Part shown: positions 3,711 through 58,570 of the stretch, piece after piece
How the letters are laid out: every line of letters begins with the position of its first letter
How positions within the stretch are numbered: position 1 is the first letter of the stretch
NCBI RefSeq assembly: GCF_030814815.1
Contig: NZ_JAUSVR010000016.1
Coordinates: 1-64,000, forward strand
DNA length: 64,000 nucleotides
Source: Ancylobacter amanitiformis
GTDB lineage: Bacteria > Pseudomonadota > Alphaproteobacteria > Rhizobiales > Xanthobacteraceae
Direction: 5' to 3'
Position numbers and translations under genes: made by a program
Notes under the pieces: model-generated
The model's input: only the letters and a program-made list of their open reading frames with translations
Told to the model about the DNA's origin: nothing
The model's database searches: none

Positions 3711-5246
3711 TCACTCGCGCGCCAGCGTGCCCAGCCCGAACCCGTCGAGATCCTCGATCGTCACCGCGCTCGCCCGCCCATCCGGGCCGAGCGCGAAGCT
3801 CACCGACTCCGGCAGGTCGGGCAGTTCCGGCGCCGGCCGATAGGTGAAGATGTCGCGGTTGAGCGGGGTGAGCGGGAAACGTGCCCGCCCCTCCGGGCCC
3901 AGCCGCAGTTCCAGACGGTCGCCCTGCGCCACCACCTCGGCCGTACCGACATAGGCATTGCGATAGCGCCCCGCATAGGCCGCGAGCGGCGCCGGCGGCA
4001 GCACCCCGCCCGATGGCGTGACGGACGCGGCGAGCGGCGGCGCGAACATGCCGGCATAGGCGGCGTTCCACGGCGTGACCCAGTCCTTGCCCGGCCTGCC
4101 GTCGAAGGCGAGGTCGAAGAAATCATCGGCCAGCCCCTCGGGCACGCCGGTCGGAAAGGCATTGGTCAGCACCACGATGGCGATGCCGCTTTCGGGATAG
4201 ATCGTCACCAGCGTGCGTGCGCCCACGCTGAAGGCGCCGGCATGACCCCAGCTCAGCCCATGGCGACCGAATTCGACATTCCAGCCCAGCCCATAGAAGG
4301 AGGCCGCGCCGCTCACCGGGTTGTTGCCGCGTGCCATAAGCGGCTGATGCGTAGCGGCCAGCGCCTCGGCGGCGATCAGCCGCTCGCCCTTGTACATGCC
4401 GCCGCCGAGTTCCAGCCGCAGCCATTGCGCGAGGTCCCGCGCCGTCGAGGACACGCCGCCGGCGGGTGCCTGCGCATCGGGGTCGCGCGTGATCTTCGCC
4501 GCCCAGCTGCCCGGCCCGCCCAGATGCAGCTCGGCGCGGTTCTCATGGCGGATGAAATCGGCGTGGCGCGAGGAGGTCGAGGCCATGCCGAGCGGCGCAT
4601 AGAGTTCCTCCTGCGCCACCTGCTCCCACGGCTTGCCGGTCGGCTTCACCGCCGCCACCGCGCCCGCGGTGAGGCCGAAATTGGAATAGGAATAGCCGGC
4701 GCGGAAGCTGGAGGATGGCGGCACGAGACGCAGCCTCGCCAGGATCGTCGCGCGGTCATAGCCGAGCGATTCGAGCTCGTTGCCCGCATCCCCCGGCAGG
4801 CAGGAGCGGTGCGAGAACAGGTCGCGCACCGTCAATTGCTGCGTCGGATAGGCGTCGTGCAGCTGGAAGGACGGATCGAGCGAGGCGATCGTGCTGTCCC
4901 AGCCGAGCACGCCCTTGCCGACCAGCCGCGCCACCACCGTGGCCGACAGGGGCTTGGAGAACGACGCTAGCTGGAACACCGTGTCGGCATCGACCGCCCC
5001 GGGCTTGCCCGCCTCGCGCAGGCCATAGCCCTTGAGGAAGACCACCTCGTTATCCTGCACGACCGCGATGGCAAGGCCGGGCACCTGCCCGTCCGCCACC
5101 GCCTTCGCGGCCAGCCGGTCGAGCCCGGCCAGCGCCGGGTCGACGCGCGCGCGCGGGATCGGCTCGGCGATGGCCGCCGCACCGCCCGCCAGAAGCGCCG
5201 CACCGAGCAGGGTCAGCCGGTGGAAAAGAGGCAGATAGCGCGGCAT
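3711..5246 (-). CDS. Secreted serine hydrolase, class C beta-lactamase/CubicO family
   Basis: 511 residues with an N-terminal signal peptide (hydrophobic [17 protein letters not shown], cleavage near residue 27). The beta-lactamase-fold catalytic motifs are present: SFSK at 95-98, the Tyr motif YSN in GYSYSNFG, and GHAGAF in place of KTG. The C-terminal 120 residues form a separate lipocalin-like/DUF3471-type beta region. Members include esterases, D-aminopeptidases and beta-lactamase-like proteins, and the substrate cannot be told from sequence. Start ATG 5246 has GGGAGG upstream. It stands alone, with Mop/TsaA relics downstream. Confidence 0.85.
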
Positions 5247-5339
5247 GGTTGCCTCCCGGCATGACGGACGGGCCCATACTGGCCGATCCGCCATGCTTCT
5301 CAAGAGGCCGGCGCGGAAAGAGCCGGCCGCATGTCGGCC

Positions 5340-5909
5340 TCAGCCCGCCTTGTGCAGTGCGAGGAGGCGGATTTCCGTCAGCAGCGCGTCGACGCCGCCG
5401 AGCAGGAAGCCGGCGGTCTTCTCGTCGACGAACACCCCATCCTTGATCTTGTCGGCGACACCGGGAATGGCGAGGTGGGGATAATCCACCACGCGCCCGC
5501 CGGCGGCGGCGAGCGATTCACGCACCTGCGCCTGCGCGCGGATACCGCCGGTGGAACCGGGCGAGGAGGTGACGACCAGCACCGGCCGGCCGCGCAGAGC
5601 GCCCTTGCCAAAGGGGCGCGAGCCCCAGTCGATGGCGTTCTTCAGCGCGCCGGATGTGCCGTAATTATATTCCGGCGAGGTGAAGATGACGCCATCCGCC
5701 GCCGCGATGGCCGCGCGCAACGCCGCAGCGCCCGCCGGCGGGGTCTGCGTGTCCTCGTCCTGATTGTAGAGCGGCACGTCGTTGAGCGTGAAGACGTCAA
5801 GATCGGCCTTGGGCGCGAGCGCGGCCTTCAGGGCCAACAGCACGGCCGTGCTGTGGGCGCCGGCGCGCAGGCTGCCGGAAATGCCGAGAAGCTTGGGGCG
5901 GGTCGTCAT
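5340..5909 (-). CDS. NADPH-dependent FMN reductase (flavodoxin-like fold)
   Basis: 189 residues. The N-terminal phosphate-binding loop GISGSLRAGAHST binds FMN phosphate, and the conserved SPEYNYGTSGALKNAIDW segment forms the flavin-ring site typical of the FMN_red family (ArsH/ChrR/azoreductase relatives). It probably reduces quinones, azo compounds or metals at the expense of NADPH; substrate unknown. I use ATG 5909 (MTTRPKLL) because the longer frame to 6110 adds low-complexity residues unlike the family. Confidence 0.85.
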   Translation of the reverse strand: MTTRPKLLGISGSLRAGAHSTAVLLALKAALAPKADLDVFTLNDVPLYNQDEDTQTPPAGAAALRAAIAAADGVIFTSPEYNYGTSGALKNAIDWGSRPFGKGALRGRPVLVVTSSPGSTGGIRAQAQVRESLAAAGGRVVDYPHLAIPGVADKIKDGVFVDEKTAGFLLGGVDALLTEIRLLALHKAG

Positions 5910-6157
5910 GTCGCGAAACTCCAGATCATCAGGCGCGCGCCGGGGGGCGCCGCGCGTCACGCTAAATCTCCGCTGTTCAGGCCCGCCGCTCAAGCGCCGG
6001 GACGTGCATTCCTGCAATCTTCCCCATGCATGACTGAAACCAAACAGTCCATCATGCAATCCTGCACTACAGGCGGCCCCGCCCGCATCCGCCGTTTCGC
6101 ATTGCGGCAAAGCGTGTTACCGATTGAAGGCGTTGCGTAGCAGGAGGGCCGTCGCCC

Positions 6158-6715
6158 TTGATCTTGACCGACCGCGACATTCTCGACGCGCTCAAGGACG
6201 GGGCGCTGAGCATCGATCCGGTTCCGCCGGCGGATTTCTACGCGCCGAACGGCGTGGATCTGCGGCTCGATAGCCGCCTCACGCTCTACCGCGCCGTGGC
6301 CGCGGGCGAGGACCCGGTGATCGACCCGGCGCGACCGGGCTACAGCTTCCGCGAGGCCATCACCCGGATGGCCGACGATATCGAGATCGGCGGGGAAGGC
6401 TTCGTGCTCGATCCCGGCCGGCTGGTGCTGGCCTGGACGCTGGAGCGGGTGGACCTGCATCCCGGCGCACGGCTCGCCGCGCGCGTCGAGGGCAAGAGTT
6501 CGCTGGCCCGAATCGGGCTCATCGTCCATCTGACCGCGCCCACCATCCATGCCGGATCCACCGGTCGCATCCAGCTTGAGATCATCAATCTGGGTCCCCG
6601 TCCCATCCGCCTGCGGACCGGGATGAAGGTGTGCCAGTTGATTCTCGAGCAGACGCTGGGCGTGCCGCAGCGTGGCTATGGCGGGCAATTCGCCGGCCAA
6701 CGCGCGGCGGAGTGA
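6158..6715 (+). CDS. dcd: dCTP deaminase
   Basis: 185 residues, full length for the family. It deaminates dCTP to dUTP in pyrimidine deoxynucleotide synthesis. The signature VEGKSSLARIGL is followed by TAPTIHAGSTGRIQLEIINLG, which carries the conserved glutamate, and the C-terminal lid QRGYGGQF is present. The start is TTG at 6158, with AGGAGGG 11 bases upstream and the canonical N-terminus MILTDRDIL; no ATG lies nearby. The preceding 250 bp hold no gene. Confidence 0.92.
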   Translation: MILTDRDILDALKDGALSIDPVPPADFYAPNGVDLRLDSRLTLYRAVAAGEDPVIDPARPGYSFREAITRMADDIEIGGEGFVLDPGRLVLAWTLERVDLHPGARLAARVEGKSSLARIGLIVHLTAPTIHAGSTGRIQLEIINLGPRPIRLRTGMKVCQLILEQTLGVPQRGYGGQFAGQRAAE

Positions 6716-6731
6716 GAGCGGGCGTGCGCTC

Positions 6732-7112
6732 TCAGCGCCCGCCGGCCCGCATCTTGCGCGCGGCGTAACGCTCGTCGCGCTTGGCCTTCTGCGCGGCGGC
6801 CTCGGCGGTGGCGCGCTCGGCCTCGGCAGCGGCGTGAGCAATGGCGGCCTCGCGGGCGGCGATCTCGGCAGCCGCGTCCGCGGCGGCCTTGGCGGCGGCG
6901 GCCTCGCGGGCGGCGATCTCGGCGGCGGCGGCGGCTTCCGCGCGCGCGATGCGGCGCGCCTCGCGGGCCTCTTCCACGGCCTTGCGCTCGGCCATGCGGG
7001 CGAGGACGGCCGGATCGTCCTTGCTCGGCCGGGCCTTCAGGCGGTCAAGCAGACGTGCCTTGGCAGCGGCGGAGTTCTGGCGGCGGTCTTCGAAGCTATC
7101 AATCGTTTTCAT
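6732..7112 (-). CDS. DUF6481 family Ala-rich coiled-coil protein
   Basis: 126 residues starting MKTIDSFEDRRQNSAAAKARLLDRL, typical of DUF6481 in Hyphomicrobiales. After the conserved N-terminus the rest is an Ala/Glu/Arg-rich helix with an internal duplication (AEIAAREAAAAKAA and AEIAAREAAIAHAA, visible as a repeated 26 bp block at 6843 and 6899). Function unknown. It converges with dcd, 16 bp from its stop. Confidence 0.75.
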   Translation of the reverse strand: MKTIDSFEDRRQNSAAAKARLLDRLKARPSKDDPAVLARMAERKAVEEAREARRIARAEAAAAAEIAAREAAAAKAAADAAAEIAAREAAIAHAAAEAERATAEAAAQKAKRDERYAARKMRAGGR

Positions 7113-7268
7113 GGCCGTTCTTTAACCCGAGAGCGCGCCGACGGCAATAACCAGCCTGCAAAACCGTGCATTGACAGGCGCGGGCAGCGACGTCGTTTCG
7201 CGCCGCGATCCGGCCGTTCGGGGCTGCGCTTTCGCGTTCCCGCTGGTGTCGCGTCAAGAGCCGCGGAG

Positions 7269-7313
7269 ACCTCAATCCCGGACACCTCAATCCCGGACAC
7301 CTCAATCCCGGAG
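7269..7313. repeat. 15 bp tandem repeat, 3 copies
   Basis: The unit ACCTCAATCCCGGAC is repeated three times (7269, 7284, 7299), with one C to G change in the last base of the third copy. It lies immediately before the surviving part of the EamA pseudogene. Confidence 0.9.
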
Positions 7314-7923
7314 ACCTCGCAAGCTATGTATTCCTGTCCGTCGCCTGGGGGGCCTCCTTTCTCGCGGCCAGCCGGGTGGTGCCCGCCTTCGGCTGGGCCG
7401 GCGCGGTCTCCTTCCGCGCGCTCATCGCCTCCGCCACGTTGTTCCTCGTGGCAAGGGCGATCGGGCGCCGGCTGGACTTCAGCTTCGGCATCGTGCCGCT
7501 CATCATGGCCGGCGTCACGGCCGTGGCGGGGCAACTTGCGCTTCTGTCCTACAGCCTGCCGCTGATCGGCACCGCCATGTCGGCCAGACTGGTCGCCATG
7601 ATCCCGCTGTTTTCCATGCTCATCGCCCGCCTCCGGGGGTGGAGCGCCCCGGTCCGGCCGATCACGCCGGACGTCATCACCACGATCGGCCCGACACGGC
7701 GATCAGCGTCGAATTCGCGGTGACGGGCGTCGCGGTGCTCATCGGCACGCTGCTGCTGGGCGAGCATCTGACGCCCGTGCAGATGGCCGGCGGGGCGGCC
7801 ATCGCCTTCGGCTGCGCGCGGGTGCTCGGGTTGGTGCTCGGGCTGGTGCCCGGCCGGCGCGGACGCGTACCGGCTCGGGCGTTTTCGGGCGAGGCGGATT
7901 CCGCGTCAGCGGAGGTGCGCTAG
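7314..7923 (+). pseudogene. EamA/DMT-family transporter, truncated and internally deleted
   Basis: One frame encodes YVFLSVAWGASFLAASRVVP through GTAMSARLVAMIPLFSMLIARL, the first EamA domain with about four membrane helices. It then degenerates. A second frame picks up AISVEFAVTGVAVLIGTLLLGEHLTPVQMAGGAA, the last two helices of the second domain, ending at 7923. About 100 residues in between are missing and the frame has shifted. No ATG precedes the first part; only GTG codons inside the second helix are available. Intact members are about 290 residues with ten helices. Confidence 0.75.
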
Positions 7924-55878: not shown

Positions 55879-56901
55879 TCAGCGCGCCCGGAAGCCGACA
55901 TAGCCGCCGTCCGCGTCGAACAGCACGTCATAGCCGTTCAGCAGGTGGAAGCCGGTATTGACGAAGGCCCGGTCGGGGGCGACGCGCAGGTGGATGGCGC
56001 CCGGCGTCAGCGGGCCGCCGTCGCCCACCGTGAAGCTGTAGAGCGGGAAGGCCGCCTCCCCCGTGCCGACCGAGACCGCCATCTGCGTGCCGGCGGGCAG
56101 CGTGCCGGCGGCCCCCTGCGCCTGCTCCGCCGGCAGGGTCGTGTACATCACCCCGACGCCGGTATCGACCAGCACCGAGCCGCAGGCCGGCGGGCTCGCG
56201 CCGTTGAGGGCGATGCAGGCCGGAACGGGCTGCCAGTCCGAGCCGTCCGGCTTGCGGGCGAGCTTGAGATAGCGGAACGGACCTTGCGTGTTCGCGCGCG
56301 TCAGGCCGACATGCACACCTTCGCGCGTGAGGATGTAGCCCTGCCGGCGCGGGCCGTCGCCACCGGCGATGTGCAGCAGCGGGTTCTTGTCCGGCGTGCT
56401 CTGGCTCTGCAGGTCCGCCTCGCGGGCAAAGCCGACACCCACCATGGCGATGTGGCGCGGGCTCGGATCGGGCGTGCAATCGCGCGCATGGTCGAGGCAC
56501 TGCACGTCCGTCACCGCCAGCACCGGCAGCGGCTCGGTCGTCACGCTTGCCCCCTCGCGCCCCACCAGCGCCACCGGCGTCACCACCCACTGACCGACCA
56601 TGACACGGCCGGAGCTGGAATAGGTGAGCTTGCCGGGCCCCTGCGACGGCAATTGGTCGAAGCCGGGTATGTAGGCCGCCGCCACCACGATGCCGGTGGA
56701 GCCGGAATCAAGATCGGCGCTCAGCGGCTCCGCTCCGCCGAAGGACAGGCCGATGCGCGGCACGCGGGCGAGCACGCCCGGCCCGGCATCGAGATAGCGC
56801 AGGAACAGCCCCTCGCGGTAGCGCGCGTAATCGGGCGCTTCCTGCGCGACCGCCGCCGAACTGGCCGAGACCAGAAGCGCCGCCAGCAGCCCCTTCCGCA
56901 T
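55879..56901 (-). CDS. Secreted pepsin-like (A1 family) aspartic protease homologue
   Basis: 340 residues with a signal peptide (LLAALLVSASSAAVA). Two aspartic-protease halves are visible. First: ADLDSGSTGIVV with Asp65-Ser-Gly and a flap-like segment KLTYSSSGRVMVGQW with Tyr94. Second: VLVDTGVGVMYTTLP with Asp246-Thr-Gly. The C-terminus, GFHLLNGYDVLFDADGGYVGF, matches the end of pepsin (FL..YYVVFD....VGF). Size equals mature pepsin (about 326). Cys135/Cys142 and Cys229/Cys240 could form disulfides. Such proteins are rare in bacteria. Cleavage activity is inferred; the second motif lacks the usual Ser/Thr after DTG. Confidence 0.65.
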   Translation of the reverse strand: MRKGLLAALLVSASSAAVAQEAPDYARYREGLFLRYLDAGPGVLARVPRIGLSFGGAEPLSADLDSGSTGIVVAAAYIPGFDQLPSQGPGKLTYSSSGRVMVGQWVVTPVALVGREGASVTTEPLPVLAVTDVQCLDHARDCTPDPSPRHIAMVGVGFAREADLQSQSTPDKNPLLHIAGGDGPRRQGYILTREGVHVGLTRANTQGPFRYLKLARKPDGSDWQPVPACIALNGASPPACGSVLVDTGVGVMYTTLPAEQAQGAAGTLPAGTQMAVSVGTGEAAFPLYSFTVGDGGPLTPGAIHLRVAPDRAFVNTGFHLLNGYDVLFDADGGYVGFRAR

Positions 56902-56908
56902 CGCTCTC

Positions 56909-58570
56909 TCACATGTTCGGATAGTTCGGCCCGCCGCCGCCCTCGGGGGCGACCCAGGTGATGTTCTGGTTCGGATCCTTGATATCGCAGGTCTTGCAGT
57001 GCACGCAGTTCTGCGCGTTGATCACGAAGACCTCGTCGCCGTCCTTCTCGACCCACTCATAGACCCCGGCCGGGCAATAGCGGTTGGACGGGCCGGCATA
57101 GACGTCATGCTCGGACGCCTTCTGCAGGGCGAGGTTGGCCACCCGCAAATGGACCGGCTGGTCTTCCTCGTGATTGGTGTTGGACAGGAACACCGAGGAG
57201 AGCCGATCGAAGGACACCACGCCGTCGGGCTTGGGATAGTCGATCTTCTTCGACTGCGCGGCCGGTTTCAGCGAGGCGGAATCGGGCTTGCCGTGCCCCA
57301 GCGTGCCGAAGGGCGAGAAGCCGAGCAGCGTGTTCGCCCACATGTCCAGCCCGCCGAGGCCGATGCCGAGATAGGTGCCGAGCTTCGACCAGAGCGGCTT
57401 GACGTTGCGCACCGCGTGGAGATCGCGGCCGATCGCGGAGCCGCGCCACTTGGCCTCATACCCCTCCAGCACATCGTGCTGGCGCCCGGCCGCCAGCGCG
57501 GGGGCCAGTTCCTCGGCCGCCAGCATGCCGGAGAGCACCGCATTGTGGCTGCCCTTGATGCGCGGCACGTTGACGAAGCCGGCGGCGCAGCCGAGCAGCG
57601 CCCCGCCGGGAAAGACCAGCCTGGGCACCGACTGGTAGCCGCCCTCGGTGATGGCGCGCGCGCCATAGGCGATGCGCTTGCCGCCCTCCAGCGTCTCGCG
57701 CACCATCGGGTGCGTCTTGAAGCGCTGGAACTCCTCGAAGGGCGCGAGATAGGGGTTCGCGTAGTTCAGGTGGACCACGAAGCCCACCATCACCTGGTTG
57801 TCTTCCATGTGGTAGAGGAACGAGCCGCCGCCGGTCTTCGAATCCAGCGGCCAGCCGAAGGAATGCTGCACCAGCCCCGGGCGGTGCTGCGCGTCCGGCA
57901 CGGTCCACAATTCCTTGAGCCCGAGGCCGAATTTCTGCGGCTCGCGCCCCTCGCTCAGGCCGAAGCGGGCGATCAGCTCCTTGGAAAGCTGGCCGCGCGC
58001 GCCCTCGGCGAACAGCGTGTATTTCGCGCGCAGTTCCATGCCGCGGGTGTAGCGGTCGGTCATCTCGCCATTGCGCCCGATGCCCATGTCGCCGGTGGCG
58101 ATGCCGACCACCGCGCCAGCTTCGTCGAACAGCACCTCATTGGCGGCAAAGCCGGGGTAGATCTCCACGCCCAGCGCCTCGGCCCGGGTCGCCAGCCAGC
58201 GGGCGACATTGCCGAGGGAGCCGATGTAATTGCCGTGATTGTTCATCAGGGGCGGCATGAAGACATTGGGCAGGCGCACCCCGCCGGCGGGACCGAGCAG
58301 GTAGAAGCGGTCATCCGTGACCAGGGTCTTGAGCGGGGCGTCGGCATCCTCGCGCCAGTCCGGCAGCAGCCGATCGAGGCCGATGGGGTCGATCACCGCG
58401 CCGGACAGGATATGCGCGCCGACCTCCGAGCCCTTTTCCACCACGACGACCGACAGGTTCTCGTCCAGCTGCTTCAGCCGGATCGCCGCGCTGAGCCCCG
58501 AGGGACCCGCCCCGACGATCACCACGTCGAATTCCATGGCCTCGCGATCGGGCAACTCGTTCGCGTTCAT
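56909..58570 (-). CDS. Electron transfer flavoprotein-ubiquinone oxidoreductase
   Basis: 553 residues. N-terminal FAD Rossmann motif VVIVGAGPSGLSAAIRL, central ETF-QO quinone-binding region (GLKELWTVPDAQHRPGLVQH, FVHLNYANPYLAPFEEFQRF), and a C-terminal [4Fe-4S] domain with cysteines in YCPAGVYEW and NCVHCKTCDIKDPNQNITWV. It passes electrons from fatty-acid and amino-acid dehydrogenases via ETF to ubiquinone. ATG 58570. It is 7 bp upstream of the pepsin-like gene on the same strand, so the two may be co-transcribed. Confidence 0.95.
   Translation of the reverse strand: MNANELPDREAMEFDVVIVGAGPSGLSAAIRLKQLDENLSVVVVEKGSEVGAHILSGAVIDPIGLDRLLPDWREDADAPLKTLVTDDRFYLLGPAGGVRLPNVFMPPLMNNHGNYIGSLGNVARWLATRAEALGVEIYPGFAANEVLFDEAGAVVGIATGDMGIGRNGEMTDRYTRGMELRAKYTLFAEGARGQLSKELIARFGLSEGREPQKFGLGLKELWTVPDAQHRPGLVQHSFGWPLDSKTGGGSFLYHMEDNQVMVGFVVHLNYANPYLAPFEEFQRFKTHPMVRETLEGGKRIAYGARAITEGGYQSVPRLVFPGGALLGCAAGFVNVPRIKGSHNAVLSGMLAAEELAPALAAGRQHDVLEGYEAKWRGSAIGRDLHAVRNVKPLWSKLGTYLGIGLGGLDMWANTLLGFSPFGTLGHGKPDSASLKPAAQSKKIDYPKPDGVVSFDRLSSVFLSNTNHEEDQPVHLRVANLALQKASEHDVYAGPSNRYCPAGVYEWVEKDGDEVFVINAQNCVHCKTCDIKDPNQNITWVAPEGGGGPNYPNM

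Follow-up and report, generated by a model that had tools for sequence, protein, structure and literature searches.

Whether a proteobacterium exports an aspartic protease built like pepsin, and if so to which family such a protein belongs and what it does, is the question raised by one gene in the window, the stretch of 64,000 nucleotides of Ancylobacter amanitiformis DNA analysed here. A preliminary description, made from the DNA letters, had placed a secreted pepsin-like protein of 340 residues at positions 55879-56901. We confirm this observation, and both position and length are exact, with the reading frame lying on the minus strand and starting at an ATG.

55879..56901 (including the stop codon), minus strand: coding sequence of a pepsin-fold aspartic peptidase homologue, 340 amino acids, on the grounds of fold, conservation and purifying selection.
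56845..56901, minus strand: Sec signal peptide, residues 1-19 (MRKGLLAALLVSASSAAVA), with AVA before Q20, judged by eye.

The closest named orthologue is a protein of Ancylobacter tetraedralis, which is 94% identical over residues 20-340, though its signal peptide region differs. Because synonymous changes outnumber replacement changes among the Ancylobacter orthologues (dN/dS about 0.19-0.33, with 0.49 against the more distant L004), these genes evolve under purifying selection. That the protein is secreted, as the preliminary description held, is supported by an N-terminus that reads by eye as a Sec signal peptide and by hydrophobic N-termini with AxA-like ends in most of the relatives whose N-terminus is complete. 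The AlphaFold2 confidence is about 55 at residues 1-20 and above 90 from residue 21, and the signal peptide is presumably removed by cleavage.

For comparison we used an alignment of 41 members, the 340-residue protein and 40 relatives, which cover the full mature length at 29-94% identity and were gathered on overall similarity, without regard to catalytic or flap residues. AlphaFold2 run on this alignment gave a model with a pLDDT of 91.2 and a pTM of 0.88. Using Foldseek against the PDB, 547 chains matched the model at E <= 0.001, the top match being 4EHC (E 3.9e-12), the C-terminal domain of Mycobacterium tuberculosis Rv0977 (PE_PGRS16), followed by BACE, penicillopepsin, plasmepsin, chymosin and renin. 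Superimposed with VIA-align, the model matched 4EHC with Z 19.4 (253 aligned residues, 3.2 A, 17% identity) and pepstatin-bound plasmepsin II with Z 18.9 (263 aligned residues, 3.5 A); judged on the model these two are tied, as a Z difference of 0.5 gives no ranking. The structural matches span model residues 27-340, that is, the whole mature chain. The preliminary description had made its reading depend on the two lobes of a pepsin fold, and the model comparison bears it out on this point. Searches of the PDB with single sequences saw less of this, as the 340-residue protein returned chance antibody matches only and two of its relatives returned no match; a profile search brought up 4EHC (E 0.0015), followed by covalently linked HIV-1 protease dimers from E 0.022 upwards.

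The motifs named in the preliminary description, D65-S-G-S-T-G, K91-L-T-Y94-S-S-S-G-R-V-M-V-G103, D246-T-G and the C-terminal YDVLFDADGGYVGF, are all present, and the features of the active site and its surroundings are as follows.

56692..56709, minus strand: N-lobe catalytic motif D65-S-G-S-T-G70 (D65, G67 and S68 in 41/41; position 66 is T in 34 and S in 7).
56593..56628, minus strand: flap hairpin L92-T-Y94-S-S-S-G98-R-V-M-V-G103 (Y94, S97 and G98 each in 40/41; G103 in 41/41).
56476..56499, minus strand: C135 and C142 (40/41 and 41/41), a probable N-lobe disulphide with putative pairing.
56437..56445, minus strand: first psi-loop, M153-V154-G155, hydrophobic-hydrophobic-Gly (G155 in 41/41).
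56182..56217, minus strand: C229 and C240 (34/41 and 33/41), a probable disulphide, with putative pairing, just before the second Asp.
56155..56166, minus strand: C-lobe catalytic motif D246-T-G-V249 (D246 and G248 in 41/41).
55954..55965, minus strand: second psi-loop, F313-V314-N315-T316 (N315 in 41/41; T or S at 316 in 41/41).

The residues invariant in all 41 members are D65, G67, S68, G103, C142, G155, G157, N173, Y189, G199, L214, W223, D246, G248, N315, D329 and G333. Since D65, G67, S68, D246, G248 and N315 are kept without exception in 40 relatives at 29-94% identity, the pepsin-like pattern goes beyond chance. The model places the flap as a beta hairpin (E86-94/E99-108). The C229 and C240 pair, which is absent from the autotransporter relatives described below, is positioned as Cys206-Cys210 is in pepsin. 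Position 249, which we take to be the Thr218 position of pepsin, holds V in 34 members, I in 4, S in 2 and L in 1, so that 39/41 have V, I or L. In nearly all members the second psi-loop reads hydrophobic-hydrophobic-Asn-[TS], where pepsin has hydrophobic-hydrophobic-Gly-Asp (a correspondence made by eye), and there is no equivalent of pepsin Trp39, Val72 standing there by eye. The active-site details that set this branch apart, as far as sequence can tell, are thus DTG-Val and the Asn of the second psi-loop.

To which family, then, does the protein belong? Its sole Pfam match is PF20729 (PE-PGRS_C, the PecA/PE_PGRS16 aspartyl peptidase-like domain), with 31.3 bits and E 1.7e-7; because the gathering cut-off of PF20729 is 33 bits, the sequence places the protein close to this family but formally outside it. 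Among the 41 members, 35 match PF20729 at E <= 0.1 and 33 match the one-lobe family PF13650, and an NCBIfam search gave no family for the 340-residue protein. The preliminary description had spoken of an A1 peptidase, a label that we find unsupported, since the family nearest in sequence is PF20729 and PF00026 is matched by 0/41 members at E <= 0.1, nor by the 340-residue protein at E <= 10. PF00026 also found nothing across the whole genome of the host, but 14 control genomes gave no match either, so that absence from the genome is not proven.

Measured against the characters of A1 enzymes, the protein has two lobes with one Asp each on the predicted fold, and Y94 of the predicted hairpin in the role of flap Tyr75. 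It lacks the second of the two hydrophobic-hydrophobic-Gly psi-loops (MVG155 in the first, FVN315 in the second, by eye), and has D-[ST]-G-[ST] in the N-lobe (DSGS) and not in the C-lobe (DTGV). It is also no family A2 retropepsin, a single lobe acting as a homodimer, as two motifs and two lobes lie in one chain. The bilobal fold is like that of 4EHC in PF20729 (Z 19.4), and a proteobacterial PF20729 member, L081 (39.8 bits), has the same psi-loop Asn, which may be a hint of shared descent with PF20729. A genuine MEROPS A1 pepsin that had come from a eukaryote and then diverged would share its bilobal fold with many eukaryotic A1 enzymes, as the model does with Z of about 18-19. We regard such an origin as very unlikely, as no member matches PF00026, the nearest sequence family is bacterial and shares the psi-loop Asn through L081, and the branch is spread through several Pseudomonadota lineages. 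The protein belongs, therefore, to a proteobacterial branch without a name, beside the mycobacterial PE-PGRS_C domain of PecA and PE_PGRS16; a search of the open-licence literature, which lacks most subscription papers, found no report of it.

Is the protein an enzyme? The nearest solved structure, PE_PGRS16, was without proteolytic activity in its original study, as cited in PMC6819658. This, together with the Asn that every member has in place of the psi-loop Gly and the existence of inactive members within A1 (PMC2761423), would suit a catalytically silent pepsin-fold protein that serves in binding or as a scaffold in the envelope. We consider this unlikely, although by no means negligible, because both Asp and D-[TS]-G are kept in 41/41 members, down to 29% identity and including the autotransporter fusions. 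Inactive relatives of pepsin typically lose an Asp. Moreover, a relative from the PF20729 family, PecA (PE_PGRS35), is an active surface protease and requires its Asp293 (PMC6819658).

A neutral pH optimum could be predicted from Val249, but we hold this prediction to be weak, since 6/7 bacterial A1 homologues have Ala at the Thr218 position (PMC2761423) and shewasin D is still acid-preferring (PMC4814920). Acid activity of the 340-residue protein is only one option among others.

The preliminary description had also remarked that the gene is nearly contiguous with that for ETF-QO.

56909..58570, minus strand: ETF-QO, the upstream neighbour (PF05187, E 2.8e-48), 7-bp gap, judged incidental.

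The 7-bp gap stands, and a GAGAG stretch resembling a ribosome-binding site lies between the ETF-QO end and the protease ATG. A functional meaning of the adjacency is not supported, as it is limited to one clade and interrupted within it. The idea that the protease is co-transcribed with ETF-QO as its partner, for example as a processing enzyme of the respiratory chain, would fit two genes on the same strand that stay adjacent in Ancylobacter loci and in the nearest relative, 'Bosea sp. 117'. However, in A. tetraedralis, whose protein is so nearly identical, a reversed glyoxalase-family gene (L001 4433-4915) separates the two, and ETF-QO is found within about 1.5 kb of the gene in none of the relatives outside the Ancylobacter clade. 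ETF-QO, moreover, faces the cytoplasm and the protease is exported, and we find the partnership scarcely credible; an operon with ETF-QO is likewise rejected on account of the reversed gene and the confinement to one clade. A neighbourhood conserved across genera was sought as a clue to function and none was found, the neighbours elsewhere including AIM24, histone-deacetylase-like and HxlR-like genes. Given these unrelated neighbours in other genera and the limited, interrupted adjacency, the link to ETF-QO and electron transfer is incidental. Two observations may be added: in the gene tree 'Bosea sp. 117' (L004) branches within Ancylobacter, whose gene order it shares, and the genus name on its record may be wrong; and one genome (G117) carries a tandem pair of protease-like genes between AIM24 and HxlR-like genes (L073 1753-4007).

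We think it probable that the protein is a monomeric, bilobal clan AA aspartic endopeptidase, exported by Sec and periplasmic. In such an enzyme the cleft would bring Asp65 of the N-lobe together with Asp246 of the C-lobe, and the pair would activate a water molecule. An extended segment of substrate would be covered by the Tyr94 flap, and once exported the protein would owe stability to two disulphides. Its mature chain would start at about Q20. Residues 27-30 are matched to the beginning of mature plasmepsin II, which leaves no more than a few residues between signal peptide and enzyme, so a classical propeptide appears to be missing, and with alignment to mature pepsins from residue 27 there would be no room for one; control would then be exerted through expression, localisation or access to substrate. 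Catalysis by the protein is what we infer, and its most likely job is the limited cleavage of envelope proteins, presumably in processing or quality control. Against this reading it may be said that Val249, Asn315 and the missing Trp39 equivalent differ from the active-site surroundings of A1 pepsins, that PE_PGRS16 is reported to be silent, and that the gap to ETF-QO would leave room for an electron-transfer link, against which the A. tetraedralis arrangement argues.

As to location, a search for secretins in the genome of the host (99.98% complete) found none, where the control search matched in 6/14 genomes; with Sec export, no detectable secretin and thus no type II system that could be recognised, the protein would stay in the periplasm. 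The family as a whole appears to lie outside the cytoplasm, given the signal-peptide-like N-termini, the SCGGGG of one relative from a different class (L076 4836-6002), which resembles a lipobox, and the autotransporter fusions. Relatives were found in 27/150 sampled genomes of the host's family and 7/289 of its class, its own genome being included in both, and in at least 10/398 genomes of the phylum sample, a lower bound since at most 5 candidates were scored per genome. Some lie on plasmids or second replicons, in Methylobacterium (55%) and in Azospirillum and Xanthomonas (28%), and carry either the annotation hypothetical or none. This patchy distribution, and relatives displayed by autotransporters that point to functions at the cell surface, might suggest an extracellular protease for nutrition or antagonism and not a periplasmic housekeeping enzyme. 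For the 340-residue protein we judge this unlikely, in view of the absence of a secretin and of any outer-membrane or adhesion module in the protein.

The autotransporter relatives are distant, and several of them occupy open frames 1,079 to 1,215 codons long.

L036 1217-4423, minus strand: Xanthobacteraceae autotransporter with an aspartic-protease-like passenger domain (PF03797 match).
L038 3446-6664, plus strand: Xanthobacteraceae autotransporter with an aspartic-protease-like passenger domain (PF03797 match).
L035 3504-6749, plus strand: Xanthobacteraceae autotransporter with an aspartic-protease-like passenger domain (aligns with L036/L038).

The PF03797 autotransporter beta-domain stands at the C-terminus of L036 (E 1.5e-58) and L038 (E 2.3e-59), as in type Va autotransporters, and a Pfam search did not find it in the 340-residue protein. 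L035, L037 and L039, likewise of Xanthobacteraceae, align over their length with these two. The protease-like domain forms the N-terminal part of the passenger, and L035-L038, those included in our alignment, retain both Asp and the flap Tyr. In the tree five autotransporter-labelled rows make up a single group (92/90); L040, which is among these, is cut by the contig end and labelled from its place in the tree alone. L045, with the domain and the beta-domain in two adjoining frames, has a plain relative as its neighbour in the tree, which requires the architecture to have changed at least twice. A model of full-length L036 is poor (pLDDT 61.2, pTM 0.44) and good only in the beta-helix stalk, so the claim of an autotransporter is one made from sequence. 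A glutamine synthetase family gene adjoins L035-L037. In L080 (4412-7639) the architecture is split, with the domain in 4412-5944 and the beta-domain in 5996-7639, which reflects either a broken gene or a fault of sequencing or assembly. To our knowledge the protease passengers of autotransporters are serine proteases, and the open-licence literature, lacking most subscription papers, gave nothing relevant on aspartic ones. We propose, tentatively, that the whole forms a separate branch, so far undescribed, of bilobal aspartic proteases that proteobacteria export, with periplasmic single-domain members and, in Alphaproteobacteria including Xanthobacteraceae, active passengers of outer-membrane autotransporters.

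Such a branch would offer an exported, tractable example from a non-pathogen that ties the PE-PGRS_C domain to proteobacteria; it bears on the timing of the two-lobe fusion and suggests that aspartic-protease autotransporters exist. If active, the 340-residue protein would let the effect of DTG-Val on pH optimum be tested simply.

The Gram-negative pepsin-like enzymes that we know to be described are either cytoplasmic, as the shewasins, or one-lobed retropepsins, and the exported bilobal ones known to us are mycobacterial. With PE_PGRS16 and PecA the 340-residue protein shares export, the bilobal pepsin fold and two D-[TS]-G motifs, but it has neither a PE/PGRS part nor type VII secretion, having instead a Sec signal peptide, two cysteine pairs and a C-lobe DTGV. 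Shewasins A and D and the other bacterial A1 homologues are likewise bacterial, bilobal, free of a propeptide and without Ser or Thr at the Thr218 position. However, they lack a signal peptide (PMC2761423) and shewasin D, which is active at acid pH and pepstatin-sensitive, is cytoplasmic (PMC4814920), whereas our protein is exported with probable disulphides; they were also found as A1 members, whereas its branch has no PF00026 match. The retropepsin-like (A2) proteins RloA, APRc and RimB belong to clan AA too, and RloA proteins are exported in Gram-negatives (PMC12239564), but these have a single lobe and a single DTG in each chain and act as dimers. The DUF3443 (PF11925) lipoproteins, which proteobacteria export, carry DTGSQG and DSGSNG in one chain, as in the lipoprotein-like L085 (1168-2505), but they form a separate Pfam family (L085, E 8e-136) with different motifs, one that looks, from its sequence, like another unnamed bacterial family of bilobal aspartic proteases. 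Set among these systems, the 340-residue protein would be pepsin-like in its mode of action and yet is not to be filed as an A1 pepsin.
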